IMG/VR virus record: IMGVR_UViG_3300033143_001691 | Span: 1-31,371 of that record | Strand: one strand, 5' to 3' | Length of the DNA stretch: 31,371 nt | Source: a virus | In this document: positions 1,233-15,381 of the stretch, piece after piece | Layout: the number at the start of each line of letters is the position of its first letter | Position numbering within the stretch: the first letter of the stretch is position 1 | Translations under genes and position numbers: made by a program | The notes under the pieces: model-generated | Seen by the model: only the letters and a program-made list of their open reading frames with translations | What the model was told of the DNA's origin: nothing | The model's database searches: none

Positions 1233-1247
1233 AATATAACCTTTTTC

Positions 1248-1767: not shown

Positions 1768-1791
1768 TTTCTTAACCTTTTCTATTTGAGT

Positions 1792-1848
1792 TAAAGAAGT
1801 ATATACCTTCTAAGCTTAAAAGGACATAATGAAAAGTATATACTATAA
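1792..1848 (-). promoter_or_regulatory. Regulatory region with two GTATATAC palindromes
   Basis: Two copies of the palindromic core GTATATAC lie at 1799-1806 and 1836-1843, with centres 37 bases apart. On the minus strand the first reads AGAAGGTATATACTTCT. The second overlaps the stop codon of the gene above. The core contains TATACT, a possible -10 that would start RNA about 24 bases before the 1767 ATG. Either a paired operator or a pair of promoters fits. Confidence 0.5.
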
Positions 1849-2052: not shown

Positions 2053-2055
2053 TTC

Positions 2056-2922
2056 TTACCCTTCTATATAAATTTTGTTTAATTCCGGTATGCCGGCACT
2101 TCTTAAAAGTTCGCGCATTTTTGCTAAAACTTTTTCTTCGCTTGCGTTCTCACGTACTAAGATTTCAAAGCCTATATTTATACGTAGAAGCTTTTTACCT
2201 TCCGGTGCGTCTGTTTGTACTTCTTTAACCACTTCCGGCGCTTCTGCTACGGTTTCCGGTTGTTCTGCTACCGCTTCCGGCACTACTACGGTATTCTTGG
2301 CGTTTATTATTCTTTGTTCTGCTATCCTCGCGTCTTCTAACCTTTGTTCGTTTACTCTCTTTTGTATTTCTGCTTCTCTCTCTAAACGCTTCGTTTCCGC
2401 TTCCGCTTCGTCTACTTTTTGTCTTTGTTTTGCATTTGATACGCGGGCTTCTATTTCGTCCGAAACTTTTTTAACTAAGTTTCCGGTCTTTGTAATACTC
2501 CCTAAAAGAACTAAATCGCTAAAGCTGATACCGTGATAAGCTTCGCCTAAATCTTGTATTTGATATTCGTCCATTTCTTTAACTACTATAAGGTCGTTTA
2601 CTTGTTGTAGAATTTTGTCTTCAAACTCTTTTACTTGCTCTAATATTTTACCGCGCCCACTTTGTACTATTCCGTTAAGTTCTGCTATTTGAGATTTAAA
2701 CAGTTTTACCGGTGCTTCTAGTATTTCTAATTGCGTCTTCTTAACTTCATTAATTCCCTTAGTTACTGCGTTAAGTTCTGTAGCTAGTTTCTTAGCGTCT
2801 TTAACGGTATGCTCGAAAACTTCTACGTCATACTTCGCAACTTCTTCGATTAAATTTACTTTCAAATCTTTAAAGTTAGCGTTTACTATTGCGGGTGTTA
2901 TTTTTACAGTTAAATTTTTCAT
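2056..2922 (-). CDS. DUF1351 family phage protein
   Basis: A 288-residue protein with long coiled-coil segments (about 60-125 and 160-205) and an N-terminus like the DUF1351 family, which commonly sits beside RecT/Bet annealing genes. An Ala/Pro/Glu/Val-rich linker (about 210-240) leads to a compact C-terminal domain of about 45 residues (KKLLRINIGFEILV...). It lies 12 bases after the Bet gene in the same operon. The biochemical role is unknown; genomic association suggests recombination or replication support. Confidence 0.75.
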   Translation of the reverse strand: MKNLTVKITPAIVNANFKDLKVNLIEEVAKYDVEVFEHTVKDAKKLATELNAVTKGINEVKKTQLEILEAPVKLFKSQIAELNGIVQSGRGKILEQVKEFEDKILQQVNDLIVVKEMDEYQIQDLGEAYHGISFSDLVLLGSITKTGNLVKKVSDEIEARVSNAKQRQKVDEAEAETKRLEREAEIQKRVNEQRLEDARIAEQRIINAKNTVVVPEAVAEQPETVAEAPEVVKEVQTDAPEGKKLLRINIGFEILVRENASEEKVLAKMRELLRSAGIPELNKIYIEG

Positions 2923-2934
2923 AATATATCTTCC

Positions 2935-3672
2935 TTATACGTCTATTTCTAGCGTTTTTTGTTTAGGTGCTTCTTCGCTTTGTGGTGCTTCCATATACGC
3001 CGGCGCTTCTTCTGTAACTTCGCCCGTAACCATATTTACGTTTTGACCGCCCATATCTTCCGTTATAAGTGCCGTAACGTCGTCCGTAGTCGTTTCTACC
3101 ACTTCTTCGGCTTTTGGTACGGGATTAATGTCGTTTAGTTCTTCTTCGGCGTATATACCGCTTACGTTAAACGCTTTTCTTAAACATTGACTTTCGGCTA
3201 CCTTTTTAAGCATAGTCGCGCCTTTTTCCTTCCAAAACTTAGTTAATTCGCCTTCGCGTGTTTTTCCCGCATATTCTTTAAATGATACTTCTACGATAAA
3301 CGGTTTTTCGGTGTCCGTTCTGTATACACTACATATAGCTACTAAGTCGCGTTCTTCTATCCATTCGTTATTTTTATATACGGGTACTTGCTTAATAGTA
3401 GTCTTTGTTTCAATACCCGCAAATTTACCGCTTTTATGTGCGATAGTTAAAAAGCCGTCACGTCCTACCATAGGGCTAACTTTTTCGACCCATTGATTAT
3501 TTATCTTAGCTTTGCGCCCTACGAAATAGATTTGATTAAGTAGCGGGTTAAGCCCGAATTGATTAGCAATAGACATACAAAAGCGCATATCGTCATTACT
3601 TGCATTAGTTGGGAAAAAGTTACTTTTAATAACCTTTTTTTCGTTGTCTGTTAGCTGTAGTGCATTTTCCAT
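2935..3672 (-). CDS. bet: Phage recombination protein Bet (RecT/Red-beta-type annealing protein)
   Basis: Bet anneals complementary single strands and pairs with an exonuclease in phage recombination. The 245-residue protein shows the family core near residues 28-60 (DDMRFCMSIANQFGLNPL, then QIYFVGRK) and the central GRDGFLTIAHKSG and KGATMLKKVAESQCLRKAF segments. The C-terminal 60 residues are acidic and disordered, ending in LEIDV, a tail that may contact SSB or the exonuclease. A leader box AGAAAAGGTTAAATA precedes the start. The RecE-like nuclease at 4922-5743 is its likely partner. Confidence 0.92.
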   Translation of the reverse strand: MENALQLTDNEKKVIKSNFFPTNASNDDMRFCMSIANQFGLNPLLNQIYFVGRKAKINNQWVEKVSPMVGRDGFLTIAHKSGKFAGIETKTTIKQVPVYKNNEWIEERDLVAICSVYRTDTEKPFIVEVSFKEYAGKTREGELTKFWKEKGATMLKKVAESQCLRKAFNVSGIYAEEELNDINPVPKAEEVVETTTDDVTALITEDMGGQNVNMVTGEVTEEAPAYMEAPQSEEAPKQKTLEIDV

Positions 3673-3866
3673 TATTTAACCTTTTCTTGCTTGATTTGTA
3701 CGCATACCGTTTTATATCTTTTCACTTGGTACGAATAGTAAGTTTTATTCGTTTGTACGCGCTTTTCTTCGAAGCCCGCTTTACATTTAGGGGCTTTCTT
3801 TTTCACTTCATAAGTAGCCGAAAATAAAGCCGAAGCAACTAATATTAAGAGTAATATCTTTTTCAT
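3672..3866 (-). CDS. Small secreted protein with signal peptide, 64 aa
   Basis: The N-terminus is a clear Sec signal peptide (MKKILLLILVASALFSA) with likely cleavage after ALFSA. The mature part of about 47 residues is very basic, Tyr-rich and has two cysteines that could form a disulfide in the periplasm. It overlaps the Bet start by one base and has its own palindrome-containing promoter region. A periplasmic protein made with recombination genes suggests envelope modification or superinfection exclusion, but no family is recognised. Confidence 0.65.
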   Translation of the reverse strand: MKKILLLILVASALFSATYEVKKKAPKCKAGFEEKRVQTNKTYYSYQVKRYKTVCVQIKQEKVK

Positions 3867-3890
3867 AATTTAACCTTTTCTTTGAGATTT

Positions 3891-3935
3891 AAAAGTATAT
3901 ACTTTTTAACCTTAAATAATCCTATATTATAATAT
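3891..3935 (-). promoter_or_regulatory. Promoter region with AAAAGTATATACTTTT palindrome
   Basis: The 16-base perfect palindrome is at 3891-3906, centred 32 bases before the ATG at 3866. Its TATACT could be a -10 giving a leader of about 21 bases that includes the ribosome-binding box. A second candidate -10 (TATAAT, 3926-3931) lies farther upstream in an AT-rich stretch, in which case the palindrome would be an operator just downstream of the start point. Confidence 0.6.
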
Positions 3936-3941
3936 AAGATA

Positions 3942-4916
3942 CTAATGATTTACTTTTATGAAACTAAGCGCTTCGTCAAAAGTTACACCGTTATTTTTTA
4001 AAGCCATTATCTTTTTATACTGCTTAGGCTTTCTTAATTTTAATCTTTCAAACCTATTATTAATAGTTAAATCGCTTTTTTCTTGGTCTGCTCCGAAGGC
4101 GCAATAAGCGCACCCCGTATTATGTTCGCCTTCTATCAATACTTCGCCCGTTTCTTCGTCTATTACGTCGTCATAAATAGAACTATAAGAAACACTAAAT
4201 CTTTTTAAATATTCCCATATATCGGCACTACTCCAAATACTCAAAGGTCGGCTTTTTATATTATTCCCTTCGTAAGTATTACACCCTACGTCTATCCACG
4301 TACTTTTACGCTGTAGGCTATCGCTTGCCATAGTTCCTATAAATCCTTTTAAGCCCGTTTCTTTTTCAAATTCTAAAGTAGGATTTTTCTTTAGAATATC
4401 GCAACACTTATTAGTTATATTAAAAGGTGCGTCTATTAACGGCTTCCACTTTTTAGCAAGCTTCCACCTACTAGAATAAAACCCTTTTCTATTGTAGCCC
4501 GTCATATATAAATTACGTGTCGCCTTCGTATTGTCTGCTTTTGCCTTTAGCATAGGTATAGCTTTAGCTACTTTCTTGCTAACTAATGGAAAACCGTATT
4601 CTTCTATTGTCTGATTAAACGTCATTTTCGGATTAACCGTTACTACATTCGGCACTTTTTTAATAAAGTCTAATATTTCTACGTACTCATTTGTCGTATT
4701 ACTAAAAACCGCTACTATGTCGGGGTATAAGCTTCTAACTAAATGAAGTAATACGGTGCTATCTTTCCCGCCACTAAAAGCTATATATACTTTTCCTTTT
4801 TCGGCTTTATAAAATTCTTGTATTCTTTTTAATGCGTGATTTATCTTTTTATCTAAATCCCACTTTAACATTTCTTCTAAATGTTCGCGTCTATACTCTA
4901 TAGTACCTTTTTGCAT
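3942..4916 (-). CDS. PAPS-reductase-like ATP-pyrophosphatase superfamily enzyme
   Basis: The PP-loop motif SGGKDS at residues 48-53 places this 324-residue protein in the adenine nucleotide alpha-hydrolase/PAPS reductase superfamily, which adenylates substrates or handles sulfur transfer. Cysteines at C171-C172, C212 and the pair C269-x2-C272 (GCAYCAFG) could hold an iron-sulfur cluster, as in APS reductase and DndC-like proteins. A WSSADIWEYL motif near 228-237 is typical of the family. It is followed closely upstream by the exonuclease gene. Phage homologues are common but their substrate is mostly unknown; sulfur metabolism and nucleic-acid modification are both possible. Confidence 0.8.
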   Translation of the reverse strand: MQKGTIEYRREHLEEMLKWDLDKKINHALKRIQEFYKAEKGKVYIAFSGGKDSTVLLHLVRSLYPDIVAVFSNTTNEYVEILDFIKKVPNVVTVNPKMTFNQTIEEYGFPLVSKKVAKAIPMLKAKADNTKATRNLYMTGYNRKGFYSSRWKLAKKWKPLIDAPFNITNKCCDILKKNPTLEFEKETGLKGFIGTMASDSLQRKSTWIDVGCNTYEGNNIKSRPLSIWSSADIWEYLKRFSVSYSSIYDDVIDEETGEVLIEGEHNTGCAYCAFGADQEKSDLTINNRFERLKLRKPKQYKKIMALKNNGVTFDEALSFIKVNH

Positions 4917-4921
4917 TTCAT

Positions 4922-5743
4922 TTACTCCACGTAACCGTATTTTTTTAACTCATTATAAGACGGGTCTAAATCTATAAACGCGTCGCTAATATTTCCGTTT
5001 TGTTCGTAATCTAAAATCTTTTCGTAAGCTATGCCATATTTAGCCCTACCTATTTCTAAAAAGAAGTTACTAGGACGATATAATAAGGCTCTATAATCTG
5101 CTTTACTACTAAAGAGTAACCCAAAGCCCGAAACGTCGCCCCCCGCCCCTTTAATAACGTCGTAATACCACGCGCCCGAAGTATCATAACCATACTTAGC
5201 CGATACATAGCGAATATTATCTAAATAAATTTCTTCACTACTTGATTTTAAGTCGAACATATTACCGCTTAATTCGTCGTATATATCTACTTTACAATTA
5301 CGCTTAATCTTGTTTTCGTCTGTATAACTAAAGACTACTTCGCGCTTCGCACGTTCTATAATTTTGCCGTATCTATTCATTACTACTTCACGCATATTTT
5401 TAGCTAGTTCGTAATCGTCCATAGATAAGATAGTGCGGTCTAAATTTTCTAGGTCGTAAATCTTTTTTGCGTCCTTGTAAATGTTAGTAAGTTTATTTAG
5501 TCCTTTTACTGCGGGGTTATCTATCTCTAAAGGGGGTGCATATAAATCGTCTATCTTTTCCGGCTCTAAAACTAAGGTATGAAAATAGATACCGAAGTCT
5601 AAAGCTACACCGCCACGCTTAACGCCTTCGGGTTTTAAAAAATCAAACATACCGTATTTTATGATAGATTTTATGCCGGTACTTCTATACCCTCTTAGGT
5701 TATTATATTCTTCATCTGATAACTCTAAATAAGCTTTTTTCAT
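4922..5743 (-). CDS. RecE-like PD-(D/E)XK exonuclease
   Basis: This 273-residue protein matches the phage exodeoxyribonuclease VIII-like family (DUF3799/PDDEXK). The N-terminal FGIYFHTLVLEPE segment (about 50-62) carries His55, and the catalytic part reads CKVDIYDE (Asp153) and MFDLKSS (Asp164, Lys166), fitting D-x(n)-D-x-K. It would digest one strand of double-stranded ends to give tails for Bet. It overlaps the homing-endonuclease start region by four bases and sits six bases before the PAPS-reductase-like gene. Confidence 0.82.
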   Translation of the reverse strand: MKKAYLELSDEEYNNLRGYRSTGIKSIIKYGMFDFLKPEGVKRGGVALDFGIYFHTLVLEPEKIDDLYAPPLEIDNPAVKGLNKLTNIYKDAKKIYDLENLDRTILSMDDYELAKNMREVVMNRYGKIIERAKREVVFSYTDENKIKRNCKVDIYDELSGNMFDLKSSSEEIYLDNIRYVSAKYGYDTSGAWYYDVIKGAGGDVSGFGLLFSSKADYRALLYRPSNFFLEIGRAKYGIAYEKILDYEQNGNISDAFIDLDPSYNELKKYGYVE

Positions 5744-6294
5744 AATGCTACCCCGTTTATTGTATGTTCTAAATTATTGTCTATTATGTATTTATCGTAA
5801 GCTTTCGCACCTTCTAGGGCGGTACTAAATCTTCCTAAATGTTTTGGTACTCCATTTAGTGAAATTTGTGCTAAGAATTTGTTTCGTTCTTTGTCAAACA
5901 TTACACCACGATACCCCGTCTTATTATTTCTTTGTATTTTTTGAGTGTTTCTGTTTTGTATTTTCTGCGTAGTAAATCTACAATTTGAAGGCTCGTAATT
6001 CCCGTCGTTTTCTTTTCGGTCTAAAGATAAGCCCTCTTTATATCCATTTTTTAAAGCCCACGCTTCAAAAGATAAGAAATTTTCTTCCCATTCTTTACAG
6101 ATTTCAATACCACGCCCGCCGTAGTCTTTATAGCTAGGATTGCTTTTGGTATTTATTCTTCTTTTCATATTTTGCCATACCGTATATAATTTAGTATAAC
6201 TTTTCCCGTGGGTAGTGTTCACTTCTTTACTTCGTGCTATTGCTTTCTTATTAAAGTCTTTGCACGCTCTGACTTCTTTTGATATTCTTCTCAT
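5740..6294 (-). CDS. HNH homing endonuclease with AP2 DNA-binding domain
   Basis: The 184-residue protein has the usual order for phage free-standing homing enzymes. An N-terminal HGKSYTKLYTVWQNMKRR block (about 29-46) leads to an HNH-type core with LSLDRKENDGNYEPSNCR (about 89-106). A C-terminal AP2 domain (about 127-172, TGYRGVMFDKERNKF and LGRFSTALEGAKAYDKYI) follows. It overlaps the downstream exonuclease gene by four bases and has its own palindrome-containing promoter and leader box. It is probably a mobile intruder rather than a core gene. Confidence 0.88.
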   Translation of the reverse strand: MRRISKEVRACKDFNKKAIARSKEVNTTHGKSYTKLYTVWQNMKRRINTKSNPSYKDYGGRGIEICKEWEENFLSFEAWALKNGYKEGLSLDRKENDGNYEPSNCRFTTQKIQNRNTQKIQRNNKTGYRGVMFDKERNKFLAQISLNGVPKHLGRFSTALEGAKAYDKYIIDNNLEHTINGVAL

Positions 6295-6321
6295 AACCTA
6301 ACCTTTTCTTATTAATATTTA

Positions 6322-6382
6322 GAAAGTATATACCTTTTTAACTTAATCAAAGCTTTAAAATATCCTATATTATATTATAATA
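6322..6382 (-). promoter_or_regulatory. Promoter region with GTATATAC palindrome
   Basis: GTATATAC at 6326-6333 is centred 35 bases before the ATG at 6294, nearly the same spacing as the copies before 3866 and 1767. On the minus strand it reads AAAAAGGTATATACTTTCT. Overlapping TATAAT boxes lie upstream at 6369-6379 in a run closely resembling that at 3921-3935, including a shared ATATAGGAT segment. Confidence 0.55.
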
Positions 6383-6388
6383 TATTAG

Positions 6389-6637
6389 TTATGCGGTATC
6401 GTCTTCTTTCATTTCCGACATAATAGCCATAGCTCCGCCGGTCTTTAGGTCTATATCCATTAAGTGCGCCATTTGTCTAACTACGGCTTTATTCGTCCAC
6501 TTCCATACTAAGCCGTCCATTTCGTGCTTAACTTCTTGTAGCTTCATATCAAACGCCGTTAATTCCATTCTACCCATAGACGCTATATTATCTACGTGTA
6601 TTTTTATAGCACCTATTCTTTTCTTAGTTAGTTTCAC
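6389..6637 (-). CDS. Hypothetical early protein, 82 aa
   Basis: A helical, mixed-charge protein with many methionines (MAHLMDIDLKTGGAMAIMSEM near the C-terminus). It overlaps the end of the 172-aa gene by 14 bases in the early operon downstream of the replication gene. No signal peptide or membrane segment. No family recognised. Confidence 0.7.
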   Translation of the reverse strand: MKLTKKRIGAIKIHVDNIASMGRMELTAFDMKLQEVKHEMDGLVWKWTNKAVVRQMAHLMDIDLKTGGAMAIMSEMKEDDTA

Positions 6638-7142
6638 TTAATGCCTTTTTTCTTAATCTATATTCTTTTAATTCTAGGTCGTCTTTAGCTACTTCTACTT
6701 TTAGTTTTTCTAACATTAGATTAACCACTTTTAAAGTTTGAAAAGTTATGCCTTTTTCGTCGTGTACTTTATCTAATTTTATGAAGGCTTTTATATTAAC
6801 GCCCATTTTTTTAAACTGCTTAGGCTTTCTAAATGCTATCGACTTACAAAAGCCGGCTATAGAAGTGTTTATAGGTAATTCTTTGAAGGTGTCGCCCCAT
6901 ATTGTATTAGACGCGTTTACTATGCCGTTTACGTATACCGTAGCTTGTAATATCTTATTAAGCGCTTTTAGTTGCTTTTGCACGTAGTCTTTACATTTGT
7001 CTACTTCGTCTAGTTGCGCTAACATTGTCTTCATTAGTAGTGCTAATACGTGTTCTTCAAAAGTATATCTTTTTAGATTTAAAAGTATTTGCTTTTGTAT
7101 CACGGGTTTTAATAATTCTATCGGTATTATTTCTTTACTCAT
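6624..7142 (-). CDS. Hypothetical early protein, 172 aa
   Basis: Predicted all-helical and soluble, with a basic C-terminus (ELKEYRLRKKALSE) and a central patch KSIAFRKPKQFKKMGVNIKA. The start at 7142 carries the leader box GAAAAGGTTAAG. It resembles in style the 183-aa product at 7311, both lying just after the replication gene, so a helicase-loader or replication-accessory role is possible, but no motif (no Walker A) supports it. Confidence 0.7.
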   Translation of the reverse strand: MSKEIIPIELLKPVIQKQILLNLKRYTFEEHVLALLMKTMLAQLDEVDKCKDYVQKQLKALNKILQATVYVNGIVNASNTIWGDTFKELPINTSIAGFCKSIAFRKPKQFKKMGVNIKAFIKLDKVHDEKGITFQTLKVVNLMLEKLKVEVAKDDLELKEYRLRKKALSETN

Positions 7143-7171
7143 ATTCTTAACCTTTTCTTTTTATTTATTTA

Positions 7172-7309
7172 TTATAAAAACGTAAGCGTATAATCATTCG
7201 CTTTTAAGTTCTTCTTAGCGTTTATACGGCGTTTTATCTTTAAAACACTCCATAGCACTAAACCGTATATTATTGTACCGCCTATAGCAAATAGCATAGC
7301 ATTTAACAT
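7172..7309 (-). CDS. Small single-pass membrane protein, 45 aa
   Basis: One hydrophobic helix (about residues 4-24, MLFAIGGTIIYGLVLWSVL) is followed by a strongly basic tail (KIKRRINAKKN), predicting an N-out/C-in inner-membrane protein. It begins one base after the stop of the 183-aa gene (TGATATG). It lies outside the lysis cluster, so an early membrane function is more likely than a holin. No family recognised. Confidence 0.55.
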   Translation of the reverse strand: MLNAMLFAIGGTIIYGLVLWSVLKIKRRINAKKNLKANDYTLTFL

Positions 7310-7310
7310 A

Positions 7311-7862
7311 TCAACCCTTCTTTATTTGTAAAGCATTAAAAGTTTTATATTCTATTGCGTCCGTACTGCTAATTTTATCAAAATAATTTATAGCTTCTTT
7401 AAACGCGTTAATTTGTGCCGTTCCGTCTGCATATAAGCTTATTTTTGTTACTAAAATTTTTAAGTTACAATGCGGTTTTACTAAATCAAATATACTTAAA
7501 TCATTTTCTTCTAGGTTTAAAAACTTAGTGCCTTTTAATTCATCTTCAAAGCTTCGCCCACTCTTTTTAGAACTATCAAAAACCGCATTATTCATACTAT
7601 AAACAAGTGCTATTAATTTATTAGCTTTTATTATTACTAAGTCTATATTTACGGGCTTAAAAGTTTCGGCTATCTTCGCTACACGGTCTAAGCCGTTGAA
7701 TATCTTAGCACCGTCTTTAAATAATGCCATATAAAAAGCTTTTAGTTCTGCGTCTGCTATATGCGCTATAAACTCTTTTACCACTTCAATATTAAAAGGG
7801 CTATTATCTATTTTTAGTTCTGTTAATATAGCTTTTATCGTTTCATTTCGTAGATTAAACAT
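7311..7862 (-). CDS. Hypothetical protein next to replication initiator, 183 aa
   Basis: The start overlaps the end of the replication gene by eight bases, so the two are translationally coupled. The protein is helical, mildly acidic, with no cysteine pairs, membrane segments or Walker motif. In many phages this slot holds a helicase loader or helicase, but nothing in the sequence shows that activity. It is best described as a replication-linked protein of unknown function. Confidence 0.7.
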   Translation of the reverse strand: MFNLRNETIKAILTELKIDNSPFNIEVVKEFIAHIADAELKAFYMALFKDGAKIFNGLDRVAKIAETFKPVNIDLVIIKANKLIALVYSMNNAVFDSSKKSGRSFEDELKGTKFLNLEENDLSIFDLVKPHCNLKILVTKISLYADGTAQINAFKEAINYFDKISSTDAIEYKTFNALQIKKG

Positions 7863-8658
7863 TTTCGCCCCCTTCTATTTGTGCTTCTATGACTTCTTCG
7901 CCTTGACTTTCGTAGTTCTTAGGGTCGAAAGGGTCGAAGCCTTGATTTAATACCGCGTCCGCTACTTCGTCCGTGCGTTGTCGGTCTTGTTCTTTGAAGC
8001 TTTTAGGTGCTGTAGCTTCTTTAGGCTCGTAAAAGTCCTTCCAATTTCCTACAATAGCATTAGTAATAATTTCTTCTATGCTATGCCCTTTTTTGTAGTA
8101 ATCTCTTACTTTGCCGATTAGTCTTTTAAGTACCGTTTCGCTATTAGATAATTTCATCTTTTTTCTAAGGGCTAAGTATTCGTAGAATAAATCGTTGTTT
8201 TTTCTTTCAATAAAATAAACGTGATTTTCTGCTTTTTGTATATTTTTAGATTTATTAGTTTTGTTATTGTTAGTCTTATTGCTATTAGTCTTATTAGTAG
8301 CGGGTTTTGTGTCTTCACATAGCGTGTCGTCACGTTTTGTGTCTACACATTTCGTGTCATATTCTTTATAGTCGTCTTCGGTAGGGTTTAATATCCATAA
8401 CGACTTATTAAACCCCGCACCGCTTCCGCGTTCTTGATACTTTAGAAGTAATTTAGCGTCTAATAGTTCTTGCACTCCGGCTCTAATACTTCTTACACCG
8501 TCCGTGAAGTTCTTAACTATTTCGCTTTCGTAAAATTGCCACCCGTCTTTTTTACTTTGTAGATATAAATATATACCTTTTGCTTTCGCGCTTAGTTTTT
8601 CATTGTCTACTATTTCATTTAGAATAATAGTAAAATTACCGTTTTGTCTGTTTATCAT
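7855..8658 (-). CDS. Phage replication initiator (winged-helix replisome organiser)
   Basis: Residues about 10-92 form a winged-helix domain (NFTIILNEIVDNEKLSAKAKG, then SIRAGVQELLDAKLLL) typical of phage replication proteins and plasmid Rep. A low-complexity linker (about 100-140, DTK and KTN repeats) follows. The C-terminal part includes SNSETVLKRLIGKVRDYYKKG and NWKDFYEP, the segment that in relatives recruits host helicase machinery. The ATG at 8658 has no recognisable Shine-Dalgarno and follows a long structured leader, so translation may be regulated. The linker DNA carries direct repeats that could be the origin. Confidence 0.82.
   Translation of the reverse strand: MINRQNGNFTIILNEIVDNEKLSAKAKGIYLYLQSKKDGWQFYESEIVKNFTDGVRSIRAGVQELLDAKLLLKYQERGSGAGFNKSLWILNPTEDDYKEYDTKCVDTKRDDTLCEDTKPATNKTNSNKTNNNKTNKSKNIQKAENHVYFIERKNNDLFYEYLALRKKMKLSNSETVLKRLIGKVRDYYKKGHSIEEIITNAIVGNWKDFYEPKEATAPKSFKEQDRQRTDEVADAVLNQGFDPFDPKNYESQGEEVIEAQIEGGENV
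8270..8360. repeat. Direct repeats inside the replication gene (candidate origin iterons)
   Basis: Two 26-base copies at 8305-8330 and 8335-8360 match at 22 positions with a 30-base period, beginning TTTTGTGTCT. Next to them TTAGTCTTATT occurs at 8270-8280 and 8285-8295, period 15. They encode the linker repeats of the initiator. Placement of iterons inside the initiator gene is known for lambda O and several other phages. Confidence 0.5.
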
Positions 8659-8705
8659 TTTATAATGGTATCTTAAAATTTAGAGAAAAATAGTTTTGTG
8701 AAGTA

Positions 8706-8813
8706 TTAAAAAGAAGTGGCTACCAAACGACTTCTTTTAATAGTTCGTATTAAACTCTTTAAGCTAACAAGTAAATGTTAGCCGAAGTCGCTTGGTAGCT
8801 TAAAAAGTTCGTA
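8706..8813 (-). ncRNA. Structured RNA: three-way junction with alternative terminator-like hairpin
   Basis: On the minus strand a 16-bp stem (8784-8799 with 8719-8734, one G-U pair) closes two perfect 7-bp hairpins: GCTAACA/TGTTAGC (8763-8782, six-base loop) and TTTAATA/TATTAAA (8736-8754, loop CGAAC on the RNA). Only 1, 8 and 1 bases are left unpaired at the junction. A competing 9-bp hairpin, AAAAGAAGT (8730-8738) with ACTTCTTTT (8709-8717), would break the long stem and ends in a run of five U, like an intrinsic terminator. The RNA begins just after a good promoter at 8819-8847 and lies about 50 bases before the replication gene. It could be a stand-alone RNA of about 105 bases, an attenuator or riboswitch-like leader, or a cruciform used in replication. 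It is not a tRNA. Confidence 0.65.
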
Positions 8814-8818
8814 ATGGA

Positions 8819-8847
8819 ATTATAGTATATACTTTCTTAATTGTAAA
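8819..8847 (-). promoter_or_regulatory. Sigma70 promoter with GTATATAC operator in its spacer
   Basis: On the minus strand TTTACA (8842-8847) and TATAAT (8819-8824) are separated by exactly 17 bases, the best-formed promoter in the window. The palindromic core GTATATAC (8825-8832) fills the spacer next to the -10, where a bound repressor would block polymerase or an activator could remodel it. The predicted start, about 8812, leads straight into the structured RNA and the replication gene. Confidence 0.75.
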
Positions 8848-8850
8848 TGA

Positions 8851-8890
8851 AGCCCGTAACCGAAAAGGTTAATTAAAAGCTACGGGCGAA
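8851..8890 (-). other. Stem-loop with loop antisense to the phage leader box
   Basis: GCCCGTA/TACGGGC (8852-8858 with 8881-8887) encloses a smaller AACC/GGTT stem (8858-8861 with 8867-8870). The minus-strand RNA contains TTAACCTTTTC (8872-8862), exactly complementary to the GAAAAGGTTAA box in front of several phage genes. There is no U-run after the stem on either strand, so it is a poor intrinsic terminator, though it might still end lysis transcripts. It begins at the predicted start of the 8897 promoter. Confidence 0.55.
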
Positions 8891-8896
8891 GATAAA

Positions 8897-8905
8897 ATTA
8901 TATCA
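8897..8905 (-). promoter_or_regulatory. Extended -10 promoter TGATATAAT
   Basis: TTATGATATAAT on the minus strand overlaps the endolysin stop codon. RNA would start near 8890, directly at the 8851-8890 stem-loop, and run towards the replication gene. No -35 box is evident, as at the other extended -10 sites of this genome. Confidence 0.5.
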
Positions 8906-9385
8906 TAAAATTAGTTCTACGTGGTTGCCGTCCGGTAAAGTATTATCTTTTTCGGGTCTTTGTAGTGAAGACATAGCATTATCGCGCCATTTAAAGCCCG
9001 TTTTGATAGTAATATCTAACTTATACGCTAAAGCTAAACAAAGCCCGTCAAACTGCGCCCACCGTAGCTTATTTTCTTCGTCGTTATCGTTATACATATT
9101 AACGCCCACCGGTAAAGGTAGCATATCCACCGCGTGACCGTAACCGTCTTTTTTTGTTTGATGATTGCTACGCTTAGTAGTGCCGTCGAAAGTGCTTTTA
9201 CCTTCGTTAAATAGTTCTAATTGTTCGGGGTCGCTTCTAACGCCATAGACTAACCTTAAATCTACGATATTAGCTAGTTCAAATACAAATTTAACTAGCT
9301 TCGGGTGTACTCCTATTAGCTTTTCTAAAGAAGATTTGCTAAACGGATATTTTACGGTTTTATTTCTTGCTAATAGTTCTTCCAT
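8903..9385 (-). CDS. Endolysin, M15-family peptidoglycan L,D-peptidase
   Basis: The 160-residue enzyme has the M15/VanY-CwlK zinc ligand pattern: SNHQ (His75), GHAVDMLP (Asp87) and GNHVEL (His155, Glu157). LVYGVRSDPEQLELFNEGKS (about 45-64) matches the conserved substrate-side region of this family. It would cleave peptide stems of the cell wall. No signal peptide is present, so export depends on the holin encoded upstream in the same operon. It starts one base after the stop-side boundary of the outer spanin gene. Confidence 0.92.
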   Translation of the reverse strand: MEELLARNKTVKYPFSKSSLEKLIGVHPKLVKFVFELANIVDLRLVYGVRSDPEQLELFNEGKSTFDGTTKRSNHQTKKDGYGHAVDMLPLPVGVNMYNDNDEENKLRWAQFDGLCLALAYKLDITIKTGFKWRDNAMSSLQRPEKDNTLPDGNHVELIL

Positions 9386-9658
9386 TTATTCGCCTTTTGT
9401 AGTGTTGTTTTCATTAAAAGATTTTTCATAGTCTGCGATTTGTTGATTATGAAAGTCTATGATATTTCTAAAGTTTGTAACGTAGCCTTCATATAGCTTT
9501 ATATCCGGCGCATAAACTCTTATATCTCTTTTCTTGGGTTGTTCTACCGTTTGAAAGTTAAAGGGCTTAGACTTGATATATACGTACTCGGTTGTACTAC
9601 ACGCTTGAAATAATAAAGTTATCGTTACTAGCAAACTCGCTATTAGGGTTTTCTTCAT
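9386..9658 (-). CDS. Outer-membrane spanin lipoprotein (Rz1-like)
   Basis: A lipoprotein signal peptide ends in the lipobox LFQAC with Cys20 as the lipidated residue. The 70-residue mature part is polar and has a short helix near the C-terminus that could pair with the inner spanin. The start lies inside the 3' end of the i-spanin gene (62-base overlap in another frame), the classic Rz/Rz1 layout. The product would link the outer membrane to the inner spanin for the last step of lysis, implying a Gram-negative host. Confidence 0.85.
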   Translation of the reverse strand: MKKTLIASLLVTITLLFQACSTTEYVYIKSKPFNFQTVEQPKKRDIRVYAPDIKLYEGYVTNFRNIIDFHNQQIADYEKSFNENNTTKGE

Positions 9659-9923
9659 TTTCTTTAATTTCCTTTTCTATTTCGTCTAAAGTTATTTCGG
9701 TTTTTTTGAGTGCTTCCGCCCGTGTTTTCTGCTTAGTATCAAAGACGGCTTTTTTAACTTCGTCTTTAGATACTTCTTTTCTAACTTTGATTTCTTTTTT
9801 TAGTCTAATTATGTTTTCTTTTTGTTCTTCGTTTGAAGCTTTTAAGTATTTCACATAGGCTAAAAAACCTAAGACTATCGCACCGATAAACATACTAGCA
9901 TATAGCTTTATAGTGCTAAACAT
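9597..9923 (-). CDS. Inner-membrane spanin (Rz-like)
   Basis: One N-terminal membrane anchor (about residues 8-26, ASMFIGAIVLGFLAYVKYL) is followed by a long charged coiled coil (about 30-92, KENIIRLKKEIKVRKEVSK...). At 108 residues it is a little shorter than lambda Rz but has the right topology. The end overlaps the outer spanin gene, and the start abuts the holin stop. It acts in the periplasm with the lipoprotein partner. Confidence 0.85.
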   Translation of the reverse strand: MFSTIKLYASMFIGAIVLGFLAYVKYLKASNEEQKENIIRLKKEIKVRKEVSKDEVKKAVFDTKQKTRAEALKKTEITLDEIEKEIKENEENPNSEFASNDNFIISSV

Positions 9924-10126
9924 TACTTCATCTTTAATTTAATGATTTCTATAAGACTATCTACTAATTTAGCGCCCATATCGGAACGGCTCATAACTGC
10001 TAAAAATGCAATTAAAGCTATTAATCCCGTATTCCATATAACCGCTTCGCTTTTGTCGCCGAAAGTCGTATAAGCATATATAGCAATAAATAAAAAGAAC
10101 GCTACAAAACTTTTCCAATTTTTCAT
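9923..10126 (-). CDS. Putative holin, two membrane segments
   Basis: The 67-residue protein has two hydrophobic helices (about 6-21, FVAFFLFIAIYAYTTF, and 30-46, IWNTGLIALIAFLAVM) separated by a short charged turn, then an amphipathic basic C-terminus (IEIIKLKMK). Small size, two segments and position directly before the spanins and endolysin fit a class II-like holin. It overlaps the DUF1353 gene end by four bases (ATGA). The family itself is not recognised. Confidence 0.7.
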   Translation of the reverse strand: MKNWKSFVAFFLFIAIYAYTTFGDKSEAVIWNTGLIALIAFLAVMSRSDMGAKLVDSLIEIIKLKMK

Positions 10127-10437
10127 CTAACCCACCTTGTATAAAATTTAACTGATTTTACCATAAGCTTAGTTTTAAAGCTATCTTCTATTTCTAATAA
10201 CACTTCTTTAAATACTTCGTCGGCTTCTTCGTACATTCCTAAGTCTACTAAATAGTCGTGAATTACTATAGCCGGTAAATATTTAGGCGTATTAGGTGCT
10301 ATGTAACTCCAAAAAATGCGCGGTATATCTGCGCCGTTTGTCTTAAAGCCTACCGGTACTTCATAGTCGCCTACAATAAAAGCTTCTAAAACTGTAAATG
10401 TATTGTCTTTGTTAGGGGTTAATATTAAATTATTCAT
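10123..10437 (-). CDS. DUF1353 family protein
   Basis: The 104-residue protein shows the DUF1353 signature: VPVGFKTNGADIPRIFWSYI (about 28-47) and LPAIVIHDYLVDLGMYEEAD (about 54-73). Members occur in many phages close to lysis or tail genes and their role is unknown. Start at 10437, coupled to the holin by an ATGA overlap. Confidence 0.85.
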   Translation of the reverse strand: MNNLILTPNKDNTFTVLEAFIVGDYEVPVGFKTNGADIPRIFWSYIAPNTPKYLPAIVIHDYLVDLGMYEEADEVFKEVLLEIEDSFKTKLMVKSVKFYTRWVR

Positions 10438-10443
10438 AAAGAA

Positions 10444-10947
10444 TTATACCTTTATATCTGCGTAATACCATTCTAAAAGCTTTTTAGCTTCTTCTTCGGT
10501 ATAGCATACTTGGTATAAACCGCCTACGTGGTCTACTGCATTTTCGAAGTCTTTTTGATTATCGCTTTGTTTATTTTTGCCGTGTTTCATTTCTATACAT
10601 AAATAGCCAAAGCCACGCGAAGCAACTAAAAAGAGTATATCGGCTACGCCACTTTCTACACCTTCTTTTTTAAGTTCTATCGCGGTAGTTTTACTTCTAT
10701 AACCGCCGTTCGGTACTGCAAAAAGTAGTTTTTCAAATAACGGATATTTCAATTTAGAAGAAGGTAATTTAGTCCAATTAAATAGCTTTACTTGTTCTAT
10801 GTGTTCGTGGTCTATGCGTGGCGCTCTTTTCTTTTTAGGAAACATAGCCGAAATATTAACATTAGACGGCTTTTTAGCCCTTTTAAGCTTTTTTACGTCT
10901 ACTTTATCGCTTATGCTTCCGAAGTCGTCTAAGGGGTTGTTATTCAT
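10444..10947 (-). CDS. VRR-NUC domain nuclease
   Basis: The VRR-NUC fold is visible from about residue 50: HIEQVKLFNWTKL, FAVPNGGYRSKTTAIELKKEG, GVADILFLV and YLCIEMKHGKNKQSDNQKDF, the last two carrying the catalytic D and E-x-K. Phage members are structure-selective nucleases often found near packaging or lysis genes. I place the start at 10947 (MNNNPLDDFGS, 167 aa) because it overlaps the upstream HNH stop by only eight bases. A longer frame from 11028 has a chance GGAGTAA before it but lies wholly inside the HNH gene. Confidence 0.85.
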   Translation of the reverse strand: MNNNPLDDFGSISDKVDVKKLKRAKKPSNVNISAMFPKKKRAPRIDHEHIEQVKLFNWTKLPSSKLKYPLFEKLLFAVPNGGYRSKTTAIELKKEGVESGVADILFLVASRGFGYLCIEMKHGKNKQSDNQKDFENAVDHVGGLYQVCYTEEEAKKLLEWYYADIKV

Positions 10948-11452
10948 CTTTAGCCCATTCCCAAAAGAAACCGCCCGCCGTTTTATGTCCTTTTGCACCG
11001 TTACATATTTCGCTAATATTTCCCGCATTTACTCCGGTTGTTTCGCTTGCTTCCGACAAAGATATAAACTCTTCTATAAAAACGCCGTCTTTGTATTGTC
11101 TTATCGCTTTGCACTTTTTAGTATTTTTTCCTTTTTTCATATCCTCTTTAAATTTTTGATTATTTTCCGCCCACGTCATAAGCTGTATATTATCCATAGT
11201 GTAACCTATATAATCGTCCTTTCGGTCTACGCTTGGTACGTACTCTTTTTGATAGTCTAAACGCTTCCAATTATCAAATAAAATATGAAAAAGTGTTTGA
11301 CTAAATAGCCATTCTTTAAATTCTTTTTTTGAATATGTAGGCGGATTATCCGCGCGCGTTTTAGACGTTCCGCATTGACTCCAATACATACGATTTGCTA
11401 AACCTTCTTTTGTTTTATATCTATCTTTATCACGCTTCTGTTTTGAAGTCAT
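10940..11452 (-). CDS. HNH-type homing endonuclease with NUMOD1 domain
   Basis: Residues 73-98 (PSVDRKDDYIGYTMDNIQLM, then WAENN) form the conserved core of a family of HNH-like phage and cyanophage homing proteins. Residues 117-165 are a NUMOD1 DNA-binding module (AIRQYKDGVFIEEFISLSEA, then GNISEICNG and TAGGFFW). The N-terminus is strongly basic. It is inserted between the ribbon-helix-helix candidate, whose 3' end it overlaps by 23 bases, and VRR-NUC. Homing activity is inferred from the domain make-up. Confidence 0.82.
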   Translation of the reverse strand: MTSKQKRDKDRYKTKEGLANRMYWSQCGTSKTRADNPPTYSKKEFKEWLFSQTLFHILFDNWKRLDYQKEYVPSVDRKDDYIGYTMDNIQLMTWAENNQKFKEDMKKGKNTKKCKAIRQYKDGVFIEEFISLSEASETTGVNAGNISEICNGAKGHKTAGGFFWEWAKDE

Positions 11453-11609
11453 TTAAAGCCCCTTTTTTATCTGCTAAAAGTAAAGCCGTTTTTACTGCTT
11501 TCGATAACGCCCCGCGTTTAAAAGAAGCTACTAAATCTACTATTTCTTTGTCTAAATAAAAAGATTGATTTTGTCTTATCATTTTTACTTCTATAGGCTT
11601 GTCTTTCAT
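11430..11609 (-). CDS. Putative ribbon-helix-helix regulator, 59 aa
   Basis: This is the first gene after the structural operon's terminator and has its own promoter. A short beta-like segment (NQSFYLDK) is followed by two helices (EIVDLVASFKRG and LSKAVKTALLLADKKG), suggesting an Arc/CopG-type DNA-binding protein. Position at the head of the HNH/nuclease/lysis operon fits a late regulator. The fold is inferred from pattern only. The last 23 bases overlap the HNH gene in another frame. Confidence 0.5.
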   Translation of the reverse strand: MKDKPIEVKMIRQNQSFYLDKEIVDLVASFKRGALSKAVKTALLLADKKGALNDFKTEA

Positions 11610-11638
11610 CTTGTATAATTCCTTATTTTTAATAAAGC

Positions 11639-11647
11639 ATTATAACA
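11639..11647 (-). promoter_or_regulatory. Extended -10 promoter TGTTATAAT for the lysis operon
   Basis: TTATGTTATAAT on the minus strand lies about 30 bases before the ATG at 11609 and just after the terminator of the structural operon. There is no convincing -35. The predicted start near 11632 gives a short leader of about 23 bases. Confidence 0.65.
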
Positions 11648-11676
11648 TAAGATATTATAGGATATTAGAAGGTTTT

Positions 11677-11699
11677 AAAAAAGGGAATTTAATCCCTTT
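11677..11699 (-). terminator. Intrinsic terminator of the structural operon
   Basis: On the minus strand AAAGGGA pairs with TCCCTTT around a six-base AT loop and runs into six T. It begins about seven bases after the stop of the last structural gene (11706) and comes before the lysis promoter. Confidence 0.75.
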
Positions 11700-11705
11700 A
11701 GTATT

Positions 11706-11978
11706 TTATACAAAAAAACTATTTCGCTTATGCATAAACCATAAAGCGAAGTCCTCAAAATCTACATTAGATATAGGCATAATAGTGCCGTTACTAAAAT
11801 GTAATTTTGTAGAAGTTAATCCCATAGCAAAACCGGTGTTTACTTGTAACATAGCGTCCGCGTCGTCTTTTTTAAACGGTACTTTATAGTCCACTTCATT
11901 AAGTGCGTATGTTTCGCCTTCTTCTTTTAATTTTTTTAAATCTATTTCGTTGGCTTTATCTTGATTTACAATAAACAT
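11706..11978 (-). CDS. Hypothetical protein after tail fibre, 90 aa
   Basis: The C-terminal half contains KLHFSNGTIMPISNVDFEDFALWFMHKRNSFF, of which the SNGT-x-MPI and the FxxFxxW pattern recall small proteins encoded with tail fibres that help fibre folding or attachment. It is the last gene before the structural terminator, one base from the 92-aa gene. No named family; a tail-fibre accessory role is inferred from position. Confidence 0.65.
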   Translation of the reverse strand: MFIVNQDKANEIDLKKLKEEGETYALNEVDYKVPFKKDDADAMLQVNTGFAMGLTSTKLHFSNGTIMPISNVDFEDFALWFMHKRNSFFV

Positions 11979-11979
11979 T

Positions 11980-12258
11980 TTATGCCCCTATAATTGCGTA
12001 ATAATCTGCTAATAGTTCCGCGTCAAATTCGTTATTTTCGCCCCCGAAGCCGTCGGGCGTTATGTTACTATCCCATTCCCACGCGTCGCGATATGTTCTA
12101 TCTGTTGGTATATCTGTAGTAGCAACTACTTTATAAGGCGTGTTAAAAGGTACGTCCTTTTCTGCTATCTGCTCTATCGTTGCAAAACTCAAAGCTTCTT
12201 CTGTTGGAATTAAAACACACACGGTATTATCTTCATTTTTAAATATTATTCTTTTCAT
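11980..12258 (-). CDS. Putative tail-fibre assembly protein, 92 aa
   Basis: The phrase DIPTDRTYRDAWEWD (about residues 49-63) is a recurring motif in small phage proteins encoded directly after tail fibres, where many act as assembly chaperones. It lies 12 bases after the tail fibre gene in the same operon. The remainder is acidic and has no other recognised domain. Confidence 0.65.
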   Translation of the reverse strand: MKRIIFKNEDNTVCVLIPTEEALSFATIEQIAEKDVPFNTPYKVVATTDIPTDRTYRDAWEWDSNITPDGFGGENNEFDAELLADYYAIIGA

Positions 12259-12270
12259 TTTATTCCTTTA

Positions 12271-13134
12271 TTAAGCGATTACTACTACGCTTATGTAGTC
12301 TATATCGGCTTGTTCGTTACTTCCTGATATTGAAGCTATGTCGCAATAACTTACATTAGGTAATCCCTCGTAACAACTAAGCCAATAATTACTACCCGTA
12401 CCCGTACCCGAAGCCCCCGTTACTGCATAATCAACGTGTGGCATATTCGCTATAAAATTCATTCTATAAGCACCCGTTCCCCTATCTGTAATACTGCTAA
12501 CATTTCCACTATCTCTTATTGCAACAATATTTTTTCCGTTAAAATTTACCCACGCTCTACTTGCGAAGACGTAGGCGTCGCCTAATGCGTTTAATGCTGT
12601 TTTTACTCTACTATCATTAGCTAACCACGCTTCTTCTGCGGGTAGCACTACGTCTTCTTGCGACCCGTCGCCCTTGAATAAAGACAGTGTTTGTCCGCTA
12701 ATCCTTAAAGCGTCCGTAGCGTGTAAGGCTTGTATGCCATTCGCTAAAATTGCTTTTATTCCATTAACTAAAAAATTACCATCATTCGCTATATAGCTTT
12801 TTTCCGTTCCATTTTGTAGAAACGAAGCTATTTTACCCGCGCCCGCTTGATTAAATCTGGCTACTGCGTCCGTAGCGTGACTATATGTTAGATGAATAAA
12901 AGCCGTTATTGACTGACTTATTTGAATATATCTACTATCGCCCGAAACCCTACTTACTGCGTTATCTTGGTCGGTTAAGTCATTTTTAACTTTAAAAATT
13001 CTTGCATTACTTCCGGCTTTCGCGTCTGTTATTTCCGTGTCTATAATGTCGCTATTCGCATTAACTACGTCTAAGTCGTACTTTTCCGTACCTATAGGCT
13101 TTGTTAATCCGATATTTGGTGTAGTAGTTGCCAT
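12271..13134 (-). CDS. Tail fibre protein
   Basis: The N-terminus TTPNIGLTKPIGTEKYDLDVV is the adhesin-attachment motif seen in many phage fibres that bind the baseplate via the gpI/XkdU-like protein. A repeat-rich shaft follows, then a C-terminal beta domain with VNFNGKNIVAIRDSGNVSSI (about 195-214) and RMNFIANMPHVDYAVTGASG, typical of receptor-binding tips. At 287 residues it is short. It is the likely host-range determinant and lies 19 bases after the XkdU-like gene. Confidence 0.82.
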   Translation of the reverse strand: MATTTPNIGLTKPIGTEKYDLDVVNANSDIIDTEITDAKAGSNARIFKVKNDLTDQDNAVSRVSGDSRYIQISQSITAFIHLTYSHATDAVARFNQAGAGKIASFLQNGTEKSYIANDGNFLVNGIKAILANGIQALHATDALRISGQTLSLFKGDGSQEDVVLPAEEAWLANDSRVKTALNALGDAYVFASRAWVNFNGKNIVAIRDSGNVSSITDRGTGAYRMNFIANMPHVDYAVTGASGTGTGSNYWLSCYEGLPNVSYCDIASISGSNEQADIDYISVVVIA

Positions 13135-13153
13135 TTTATACCTTTTTTTTTAT

Positions 13154-13798
13154 TTACGCGCTTTGTTTATATGCGTGTAGATTGTCGTGACTAAATACAT
13201 TTAATTCGTCGTGAGTAAACGCCGACATAGCTATATCTATACTTACTTCGAAGTCTAAATCTGCTTGCAATATTTCTATAATTGTATTTTTAAATATATC
13301 TATATCCGCCGGCAAAACTTGCATATTTGAAAAAGTGATAGTTAGTGTGTAGTCGTCGCCTAATTCGCTTAATGTCGGGTTTGGCTCATTAGGATAAAAT
13401 TGTTTCGCTATTCCTATAATAACAGAACGTGTAGTAACTTTTCTAACTAGCTTAGAAGTAAGTCTACCGGCTCTATAATCGCTACTTAATGTTTTATCTA
13501 CCGGTACTTTTAACATTTCTTCCATATATGTTAATTGTTCGTCGCTTGCTAAGTGGAATATATAACCATTTCGAAAGTTTAAGGCTATTTCTTCCCACCC
13601 TTCGGTAGTAGCTTTAAAAGCGAAAGATAAATCTACCCATATACCGCTTAATTTGTGGTAGTATTTTGGTAGATACCAAAGTATATCTGTACTATTTATT
13701 TTATAGTTTTCGAATAGCATAGTATCGCCGTCTTCTAATAACATTAAGTCGTTATCTTCTAATAGCATTTCTTCCGTTTCGAAAGGGTTTAAAGCCAT
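13154..13798 (-). CDS. Baseplate protein, XkdU/YmfQ-like (DUF2313)
   Basis: The body (WYLPKYYHKLSGIWVDL, RLTSKLVRKVTTRSVIIGIAK) resembles the DUF2313/gpI group that follows baseplate J protein in PBSX- and P2-type tails and connects the fibre to the baseplate. The first 30 residues are an unusual acidic repeat, MLLEDNDLMLLEDGDTMLFE. It sits between the J protein (four bases) and the fibre. Confidence 0.75.
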   Translation of the reverse strand: MALNPFETEEMLLEDNDLMLLEDGDTMLFENYKINSTDILWYLPKYYHKLSGIWVDLSFAFKATTEGWEEIALNFRNGYIFHLASDEQLTYMEEMLKVPVDKTLSSDYRAGRLTSKLVRKVTTRSVIIGIAKQFYPNEPNPTLSELGDDYTLTITFSNMQVLPADIDIFKNTIIEILQADLDFEVSIDIAMSAFTHDELNVFSHDNLHAYKQSA

Positions 13799-13802
13799 AA
13801 TC

Positions 13803-14855
13803 TTACACCGTTGCCGTTATGCTATTAGCTTTAGGTATTTCTATGCCCGTAATAGGTATAGAAGACGTAGCACCGTTTAGAGTTAATCCCGTATAATTTG
13901 CTACGCCTTCCGTTTGTATGACTACCTTAACTACTCCGATATACGTCACTTCTGTAGCGTCCATTGGAAAAGTATTTACATACGAAGTTACATTTTCGAT
14001 TATTGCTTCTAAAACTTGACTTTCACTAAGCCCGCTTGCTGTATCTATAGTTACGCCCGTTACTGCTACGTCTATATTTAAAGGCGTCGCGCTAACTACT
14101 TCCAATACTCCCGAAGTTGCGGGGCGTTCTTCTAAAATATGGTCGTAAACATCATCTAAAAGCGTTTGCGGTGCTGTATCATTATCTATATTAACAATAG
14201 CAACGCGCATACTACCCGCGCCCGTTGGTTTTACGATAATACGCGCCCCGCCTACGCCCGAAACTTCTGTAGCCCATTCGTAATAATGGTATGCGTTTCC
14301 ACTTGTAGCCGGATAACGTAAACTATCGTCTATTCTTTTTCGTAATTGTTCGTCCGTTTCTAAGTCTTGTGCGTCTGCTAATTCTAACTCATTAGTAACA
14401 CTATCTAAGCCTACTATAGAAATAGGAATATTTACTATAGAGTTGGCTATAGTATTCCCTTTAACTCCGTCTTCTTTTGCCGTAATAGCCGTAATTACAG
14501 TTCCCGAAGCTTCTATTACCGCGATACTATCTAAAGCATATTCTACGGTATCACTTGCTACTACGAAACCTTTAGGAATACTCGCGCCTTCTGTACCGGT
14601 TAAAGTAACGAAACCCGTAGCAAAAGAAGATAAACGTCTATAGATACCAAAGTTTAGCGCTACGCTTGTAAGGTCTTCGCCTTCTGCTACTCTATAGTCT
14701 AAACTCTCTCTTACTTTATCCCATTCTAAATAAAAATGCTCATTTGCTAAGGCGTTAGCCGTTGCTAAGTCATTTATAACTGTACCTTCTGTTTTGTCGT
14801 ATGCGTCGCTCATAGCGTCTAAAAATATTTGTTTTTGGTCTGATACTAAACTCAT
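13803..14855 (-). CDS. Baseplate J-like protein (XkdT/gp47 family)
   Basis: At 350 residues it has the normal size for the family. GFVTLTGTEGASIPKGFVVA (about 79-98), the ALDSIAVIEASGTV repeat region, and LETDEQLRKRIDDSLRYPATSGN (split about 165-187) with the following YYEWATEVSGVGGARI are characteristic of baseplate wedge J proteins. It forms the wedge ring around the hub of a contractile tail. Adjacent to the gp25/XkdS-like gene. Confidence 0.92.
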   Translation of the reverse strand: MSLVSDQKQIFLDAMSDAYDKTEGTVINDLATANALANEHFYLEWDKVRESLDYRVAEGEDLTSVALNFGIYRRLSSFATGFVTLTGTEGASIPKGFVVASDTVEYALDSIAVIEASGTVITAITAKEDGVKGNTIANSIVNIPISIVGLDSVTNELELADAQDLETDEQLRKRIDDSLRYPATSGNAYHYYEWATEVSGVGGARIIVKPTGAGSMRVAIVNIDNDTAPQTLLDDVYDHILEERPATSGVLEVVSATPLNIDVAVTGVTIDTASGLSESQVLEAIIENVTSYVNTFPMDATEVTYIGVVKVVIQTEGVANYTGLTLNGATSSIPITGIEIPKANSITATV

Positions 14856-15341
14856 TTAAGCCCCTTCGCTATATAGACTATTTCCGCCTATAACTTCTTT
14901 GATTTCTATTTCGTCGTAAGTAGAAGTTAAAACTATGTCGATTAATATTTTATCTTCTACCGGTATTACTTGAAGGCTATTAATTGACTCTACATCATAT
15001 TCGCCATTTAAAAAGTTTCTGATTTCACGGCTATATTTTCCTAAAATAACAGAAGTAAAAGTATGTCCTATAGCTTCATAAACTGAAAAGCCGAAAGTTT
15101 CGCCCGCTTGTATTTGGTATTGTTCTTCGTATAACTTATAGTAGTCTTTTTCAGTACGAAGAAATTTAAGAATACGTTGTATTAAGGCTTCCGCGTTTTC
15201 TATCTTTTTAAGCCCTTGATTTTCCATAATACCTAAGCCCGTAGTAAAATCTATTCCCACTATAACCTTACCGCGTGGCGTAGCTTCTTCGGCTTCTACT
15301 GCTTGCGTTTGCTCTAAGTAGTCGTAAGAATATGTAGCCAT
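14856..15341 (-). CDS. Baseplate wedge protein, XkdS/gp25-like (DUF2634)
   Basis: The 161-residue protein includes GLGIMENQGLKKIENAEALI (about 35-54) and LRTEKDYYKLYEEQYQIQ, matching the DUF2634/XkdS pattern next to J proteins. It caps the tail sheath at the baseplate in relatives. The C-terminal 40 residues form beta strands (ILIDIVLTSTYDEIEIKEVI). A 40-base gap with a possible TATAAT lies upstream. Confidence 0.78.
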   Translation of the reverse strand: MATYSYDYLEQTQAVEAEEATPRGKVIVGIDFTTGLGIMENQGLKKIENAEALIQRILKFLRTEKDYYKLYEEQYQIQAGETFGFSVYEAIGHTFTSVILGKYSREIRNFLNGEYDVESINSLQVIPVEDKILIDIVLTSTYDEIEIKEVIGGNSLYSEGA

Positions 15342-15381
15342 TTTATACCTTTACCTTAATTTTCATTATCTGTATTATATC

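Follow-up and report, generated by a model that had tools for sequence, protein, structure and literature searches.

What sets the timing of replication-gene expression in small phages without an evident integrase is, to our knowledge, rarely known, and the locus described here raises that question in compact form: does a structured stretch ahead of a replication initiator gene act as a regulatory RNA and, if so, by what means? The DNA analysed (31,371 nucleotides, hereafter ‘the window’) is a 31.4-kb viral record encoding terminase, portal, head, tail-sheath and baseplate genes, together with RecT and a DUF3799 PDDEXK-like nuclease. The region in question, 8706-8813, lies between an endolysin-like gene on its upstream side (8903-9385; PHROG 465) and, downstream, the initiator gene (7855-8658, minus strand), which matches both PHROG 678 (E 2e-16) and PHROG 428 (E 9e-15). 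Two 25-nt direct repeats, set 30 nt apart at 8304-8358 inside the initiator gene, are candidate origin iterons.

Just ahead of the region sits a predicted sigma-70-type promoter (TTTACA-17-TATAAT; 8847-8819, minus strand) that agrees with the consensus at 11 of 12 positions and is the top-ranking site on that strand within 1-16000; promoter-like sites are no commoner overall than in shuffled sequence, such that the case rests on the quality and place of this one site. Transcription from it would be expected to start at ~8812, within the first base or two of the 8813-8706 region.

The surroundings hold some further features that we record in their own right. A palindrome, AGTATATACT, occurs between genes at 1835-1844, 3894-3903 and 8824-8833, with near copies at 1798, 6325 and 28971; the copy at 8824-8833 overlaps the -10 element of the leader promoter, and a role as an operator is possible, the overall count being weakly above chance (6 against 3.2 expected, with one mismatch allowed). 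Between the endolysin stop and the promoter (8851-8887, minus strand) is a hairpin whose loop, UUAACCUUUU, is the reverse complement of AAAAGGTTAA, a motif that the window contains 7 times against 0.8 expected and that precedes several of the phage’s start codons closely; a hairpin with the same loop motif occupies the corresponding place in two relatives, G001 and G002, and it could represent the end of a late transcript pairing with early ribosome-binding sites. Mutually similar intergenic stretches at 1757-1820, 3860-3940 and 6280-6386, which match several places in G001 and G002, appear to be dispersed phage repeats.

Every coordinate given by the first-pass annotation for 8706-8813 matches the sequence. 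The long stem that it described (P1) pairs its 5′ arm, 8799-8784, with 8734-8719 (P1′, the last segment to be transcribed) through 16 pairs, 15 Watson-Crick and one G-U in the minus-strand RNA, and the outer nine bases of the 5′ arm are shared with a further helix described below. Both of the 7-bp inner hairpins are present where they had been placed: P2 (8782-8763, minus strand) pairs 8782-8776 with 8769-8763 across a 6-nt loop, whilst P3 (8754-8736, minus strand) is a weak hairpin, all A-U, formed by 8754-8748 with 8742-8736, for which RNAfold favours a different, 5-bp form. The 8-base repeat AGTTCGTA likewise occurs at 8742-8749 and 8806-8813, and the P3 loop repeats the sequence at the 5′ end of the RNA, UACGAACU. 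One description does need correcting: the hairpins had been said to be joined with almost no unpaired linker, but eight unpaired bases (8762-8755) separate P2 from P3. Beyond the junction runs a pyrimidine-rich tail (8718-8690, minus strand) containing a weak boxA-like motif, CUUUUUAA. A fold much weaker than shuffled sequence had been named as grounds for abandoning the idea, but the computed fold of 8813-8700 as minus-strand RNA reaches -38.3 kcal/mol, where dinucleotide shuffles average -17.3 ± 3.0, a z-score of -6.95 that none of 200 shuffles equalled. Rfam searches at gathering score return no match in the window, nor at the leaders of seven relatives, and at E<=10 only chance-level matches in the window; a tRNA search found none. 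Attenuation through a leader peptide was considered and set aside on reading the sequence, as the leader is without an ATG.

Repeat searching and direct pairing revealed a second long helix, which we call helix A and which had escaped the first-pass annotation, in which 8810-8791 pairs with 8771-8752 at 19 of 20 positions. Its outer half is contributed by the 5′-terminal segment of the RNA, F (8810-8800; 11 bases in the window and 11-14 nt in all ten members tabulated), which pairs with its complement F′ (8762-8752), a segment most of which is, in the junction state, the unpaired P2-P3 linker; the remainder is formed by the outer nine bases of the P1 5′ arm with the 3′ side of P2. Neither P1 nor P2 can therefore coexist with helix A. 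Minimum-free-energy folding of growing transcripts places helix A at intermediate lengths in the window, with P1 replacing it once P1′ has been made, and the same order, A before P1, is computed across ten members with the exception of L040, in which P1 never wins; this sequence of events is a thermodynamic calculation rather than a kinetic simulation. In the hok mRNA and the MS2 leader an early, metastable 5′ hairpin gives way to a different fold as transcription proceeds, and the early 5′ helix predicted here resembles them in being replaced later; the likeness is one of description, drawn between different genes, and on our side it is computed only. Since in the window the P1-P2-P3 junction exceeds A combined with the terminator-like hairpin (helix C) considered below by 5.6 kcal/mol in stability, something would have to keep this RNA in the A state.

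Searches by several routes brought the total to 16 elements in 15 viral records, the window included; the 15 further elements lie in 14 other records, and one (L095) is weak. Homology to RecT led to G001 and G002, whose leaders are of other sequence and yet carry the same two helices. A descriptor scan of fetched loci in which helix A was required gave L025, L008, L029, L038 and L040, so that the last four, and L025 in part, provide no independent test of that helix. Scanning viral contigs for the P1 pattern alone yielded 13 loci and recovered the G001 contig again; the AT-rich new loci among them, L085 and L086, also have helix A (scores of 40.5 and 38.5, against 12-19 in the other loci), with the caveat that high scores for one helix alone, A-only or B-only, can arise in GC-rich or low-complexity loci. 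A protein search with the L008 and L086 initiators as queries added four new loci, three with a clear element upstream and one with the weak element mentioned above, and a pattern of F′ plus tail found L098, which carries two. The RecT, P1-only and initiator routes did not select on helix A, and hence the P1-only scan and the initiator search do test it. At the same thresholds, which L095 does not reach, the fetched stretches of the members’ contigs hold no further match; nor do three phage isolates whose initiators are related (Pseudomonas HU1, Staphylococcus vB_Q2 and Erysipelothrix SE-1) carry the element at the thresholds used. No close relative at the DNA level was found among GenBank phages, and searching phages and plasmids with RecT and initiator queries brought up distant matches only. 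L029, L094, L096 and both L098 elements are mutually related, which brings the number of effectively independent members nearer to eleven or twelve.

The element and its downstream genes share a strand, and nearly all of the elements head an operon that includes replication-initiator or antirepressor genes. An initiator stands downstream, in some cases with other genes in between, in the window, G002, L008, L086, L094, L095, L096 and L097, and initiator-like genes follow in L038 and L040 by inspection rather than family search. On our own reading of the sequence, likewise made without a family search, an antirepressor-like gene follows in L029, whilst one of the L098 elements precedes a Rha-like antirepressor and the other an initiator-like gene. 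The -10 element, where recognisable (window, L008, L029 and, weakly, G002), ends 18-21 nt before P1, a spacing that would place F at the very start of the RNA in those members; L025, L038 and L086 have no recognisable promoter just upstream of the leader. Some of these loci have peculiarities of their own: the leader-initiator interval of G002 holds a GIY-YIG-like endonuclease gene (L020, 1155-1757) that the window lacks and that is a probable homing endonuclease insertion, and in G001 (L006, 5560-6080) and L085 the leader is separated from the first gene by some 500 bases devoid of any normal-sized gene.

Because the members are too divergent for reliable alignment (MAFFT), conservation was assessed by an alignment-free ‘cross-pairing’ test, in which each segment is paired with its own partner and with those of other phages and a p value obtained by permutation, rather than with a covariance model. 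F pairs with its own interior at -10.9 kcal/mol as against -4.9 with those of others (p 0.00005), and the P1 arms with one another at -22.1 as against -7.7 (p 0.00005), although for members taken from the P1 or A scans the excess is partly a product of selection. Ranked against the alternatives, F’s own interior came first in 10 of 14 cases and second in the other four. Pairing of F with the tail, a control, gave p 0.70; a second control, in which the interior was paired with the 25 nt preceding F, returned p 0.02, which means that p values of that order are not to be trusted here. A want of compensatory change in related phages would have spoken against the structure, but it recurs with other letters. 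Taken at the level of sequence, this comparison establishes that helices A and P1 exist, are conserved and stand before these genes.

The same data bear on whether DNA or RNA is the functional molecule, the alternative offered at the outset being a DNA cruciform at the origin, alongside which we considered a single-strand origin signal. A strong inverted repeat does adjoin the initiator gene, but helices A and P1 together contain 48 G-U pairs, which suit one RNA strand only, and in 14 of 16 elements folding is more stable for the sense strand than for its complement; both features favour a sense RNA. Moreover, a second, overlapping helix is conserved, as is the promoter spacing where it is visible, the element also stands before antirepressor-like genes, and the 25-nt repeat within the initiator gene makes the better origin candidate. 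The cruciform is thus unsupported, and we regard it as the least probable of the explanations considered.

Competition with a terminator-like hairpin had been central to the first-pass view of the locus. Mutually exclusive folds before the replication gene are indeed supported, but the competition that runs through the family is that of helix A against P1. The hairpin itself (helix C; 8738-8709, minus strand, pairing 8738-8730 with 8717-8709) reuses the first bases of P1′, and was described as a 9-bp stem ending in five U; the stem is present, the free U5 is not, as four of the five U lie within it. Helix C (-9.1 kcal/mol) can have either nine pairs and one U or five pairs and U5, and for this reason is marginal as an intrinsic terminator. 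Of the members tested, three show it as significant against shuffles and the others do not (p 0.007 in the window, 0.020 in G001 and 0.003 in L085), and these three are also the only members in which cross-pairing (p 0.009 overall) ranks it top. An anti-terminator/terminator arrangement ahead of the replication gene can be drawn for these three, with a weak U-tract, and helix C is absent from the other members. It is not the family’s general mechanism, and we therefore claim no terminator for the family.

This anatomy recalls the repC leader of the staphylococcal plasmid pT181, in which a hairpin able to arise immediately ahead of the gene is kept from doing so because a 5′ segment captures its 5′ portion (PMC4878617). 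Here, too, there is a replication-gene leader in which the P1 5′ arm could serve as anti-terminator by sequestering the 5′ part of helix C, and one might envisage attenuation of the same type, driven by a separate counter-transcript from the opposite strand. The pT181 switch, however, is a fully complementary counter-transcript, whereas the competitor in our case, F′, is carried by the leader itself, whose terminator is not conserved. As a consensus scan of the members also turns up no antisense promoter that is strong or conserved (the best sites match at 7-9 of 12 positions, in varying places), we consider such a counter-transcript very improbable.

Synthesising these findings, we think that the element is very probably a real RNA switch, of a family not previously described, that helps to decide replication-gene expression. 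The reading that we prefer, and to which we would assign a probability of roughly 0.55, is that the region forms the 5′-terminal leader of an early replication transcript and acts as a bistable switch, refolding during its own synthesis and controlling the downstream genes in cis. To begin with, F and the outer half of the P1 5′ arm would pair with the segment following P2, giving helix A; the emerging P1′ would then pair with those P1 bases held in the loop of A, displace A, and close the P1-P2-P3 junction. In the helix A state P1′ would be free, allowing helix C to form (in the window and two relatives) or leaving a ribosome-binding site open (in L040, where P1′ has an AGGAG just before the ATG, such that P1 would hide it), and in the junction state P1′ would be sequestered. 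The most likely role, we suggest, is cis control of passage from the leader into replication or antirepressor genes, which is attenuation in the broad sense; the output of the switch, its sign and the signal to which it responds are what we infer. Of the earlier interpretation, which also allowed for a free RNA of about 105 bases, the minus-strand regulatory RNA with mutually exclusive folds is supported, by the promoter-derived start at ~8812, by a structure that recurs with other letters and by the fit of the G-U pairs to a sense RNA. Several observations count against the bistable leader. The output element is not conserved, with helix C in three members and a ribosome-binding site within P1′ in L040 only; in G001 and L085 the bases before the first gene are non-coding; three members lack the recognisable promoter just upstream; and, in the window, the junction holds its 5.6 kcal/mol advantage in stability over A plus C.

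The tail suggests another possibility, namely that the element is a nut- or put-like antitermination site, with the junction and a boxA-like motif modifying RNA polymerase to read through terminators further along the early operon, and with helix A being only a folding intermediate. The boxA consensus is GYTCTTTAANA (PMC5725501), and a CUCUUWAA-like motif is enriched soon after P1′ (Fisher 3e-4 without close relatives) and in part strictly conserved in five elements; in the window, L008 and L029 the element also comes straight after an early promoter. What many of our members have in common with lambda nut, rrn boxA and HK022 put is a folded RNA close to where an early transcript begins, with a boxA-like motif behind it. 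They differ in the competing 5′-end helix that our elements maintain and in the window’s weak boxA, and no gene for an antitermination protein was identified. That motif was noticed post hoc and is absent from L040, and an antitermination site would need no compensatory upkeep of helix A; we hold this explanation to be unlikely.

A stronger, if still doubtful, possibility is an RNA that acts in trans, on the pattern of the P4 CI and P1/N15 C4 RNAs, for immunity or copy control: the leader, or a piece of it, would accumulate with phage copies, pair with new leaders (F′ with F, or a P1 arm with P1′), and shut off the replication operon. In P4 CI and C4 RNA, segments pair either inside a compact RNA or with a downstream target (PMC4825925), and our element, also a non-coding leader with alternative pairing segments, has the same place at the head of replication or antirepressor operons. 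When run on P4, our descriptor ranks first, as competing helices, the C4 closing stem and a CI-downstream pairing that covers a Shine-Dalgarno sequence; helix A, at 15-20 bp, is long enough for intermolecular action; and P1′ of L040 covers a ribosome-binding site as in P4. Set against this, the C4 model (RF01695), which gives 75 and 79 bits for P4 and N15 as positive controls, matches none of ten records at E<=10, and isrK models give no match either; sizes and sequences are other than those of P4 CI/C4; and a Phage_integrase domain occurs in none of the 15 records, the window included, some of which may be fragments. There is also no room for an upstream target, F being the start of the RNA where the promoter is visible. 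A downstream, seqC-like target, in which F′ would pair with the tail, was appealing in single cases but was rejected on the evidence of shuffles and of cross-pairing (p 0.15). As for targets elsewhere, the window contains no second exact match to F′ or to UUUGGUAGC, and near-matches are somewhat above expectation. The two elements of L098 (1941-1867 and 1021-945, minus strand), whose P1 arms differ and whose F′ and tail motifs are the same, amount to a natural test of cross-talk.

By the tests run, then, the leader belongs neither with the pT181 attenuators nor with the P4 CI/P1 C4 RNAs, although its logic is akin to both. We would speculate, with some hesitation, that it might represent an undescribed class of phage RNA in which a replication leader is its own antisense regulator, switching between two helices of 15-20 bp during synthesis, such that its copies count genomes and gate replication with neither a protein repressor nor a counter-transcript.

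Finally, what the comparison brings to light is one RNA architecture that recurs ahead of initiator and antirepressor genes across 15 uncultivated viral records, which have little sequence in common, and for which Rfam has no family. A switch of the kind that we propose predicts that breaking helix A and breaking P1 would have opposite effects, each rescued by compensation. If it acts in trans, the element would constitute an RNA-only system of copy control or immunity that the P4/P1 RNA family does not match; acting in cis, it would be a compact natural example of a co-transcriptional switch.
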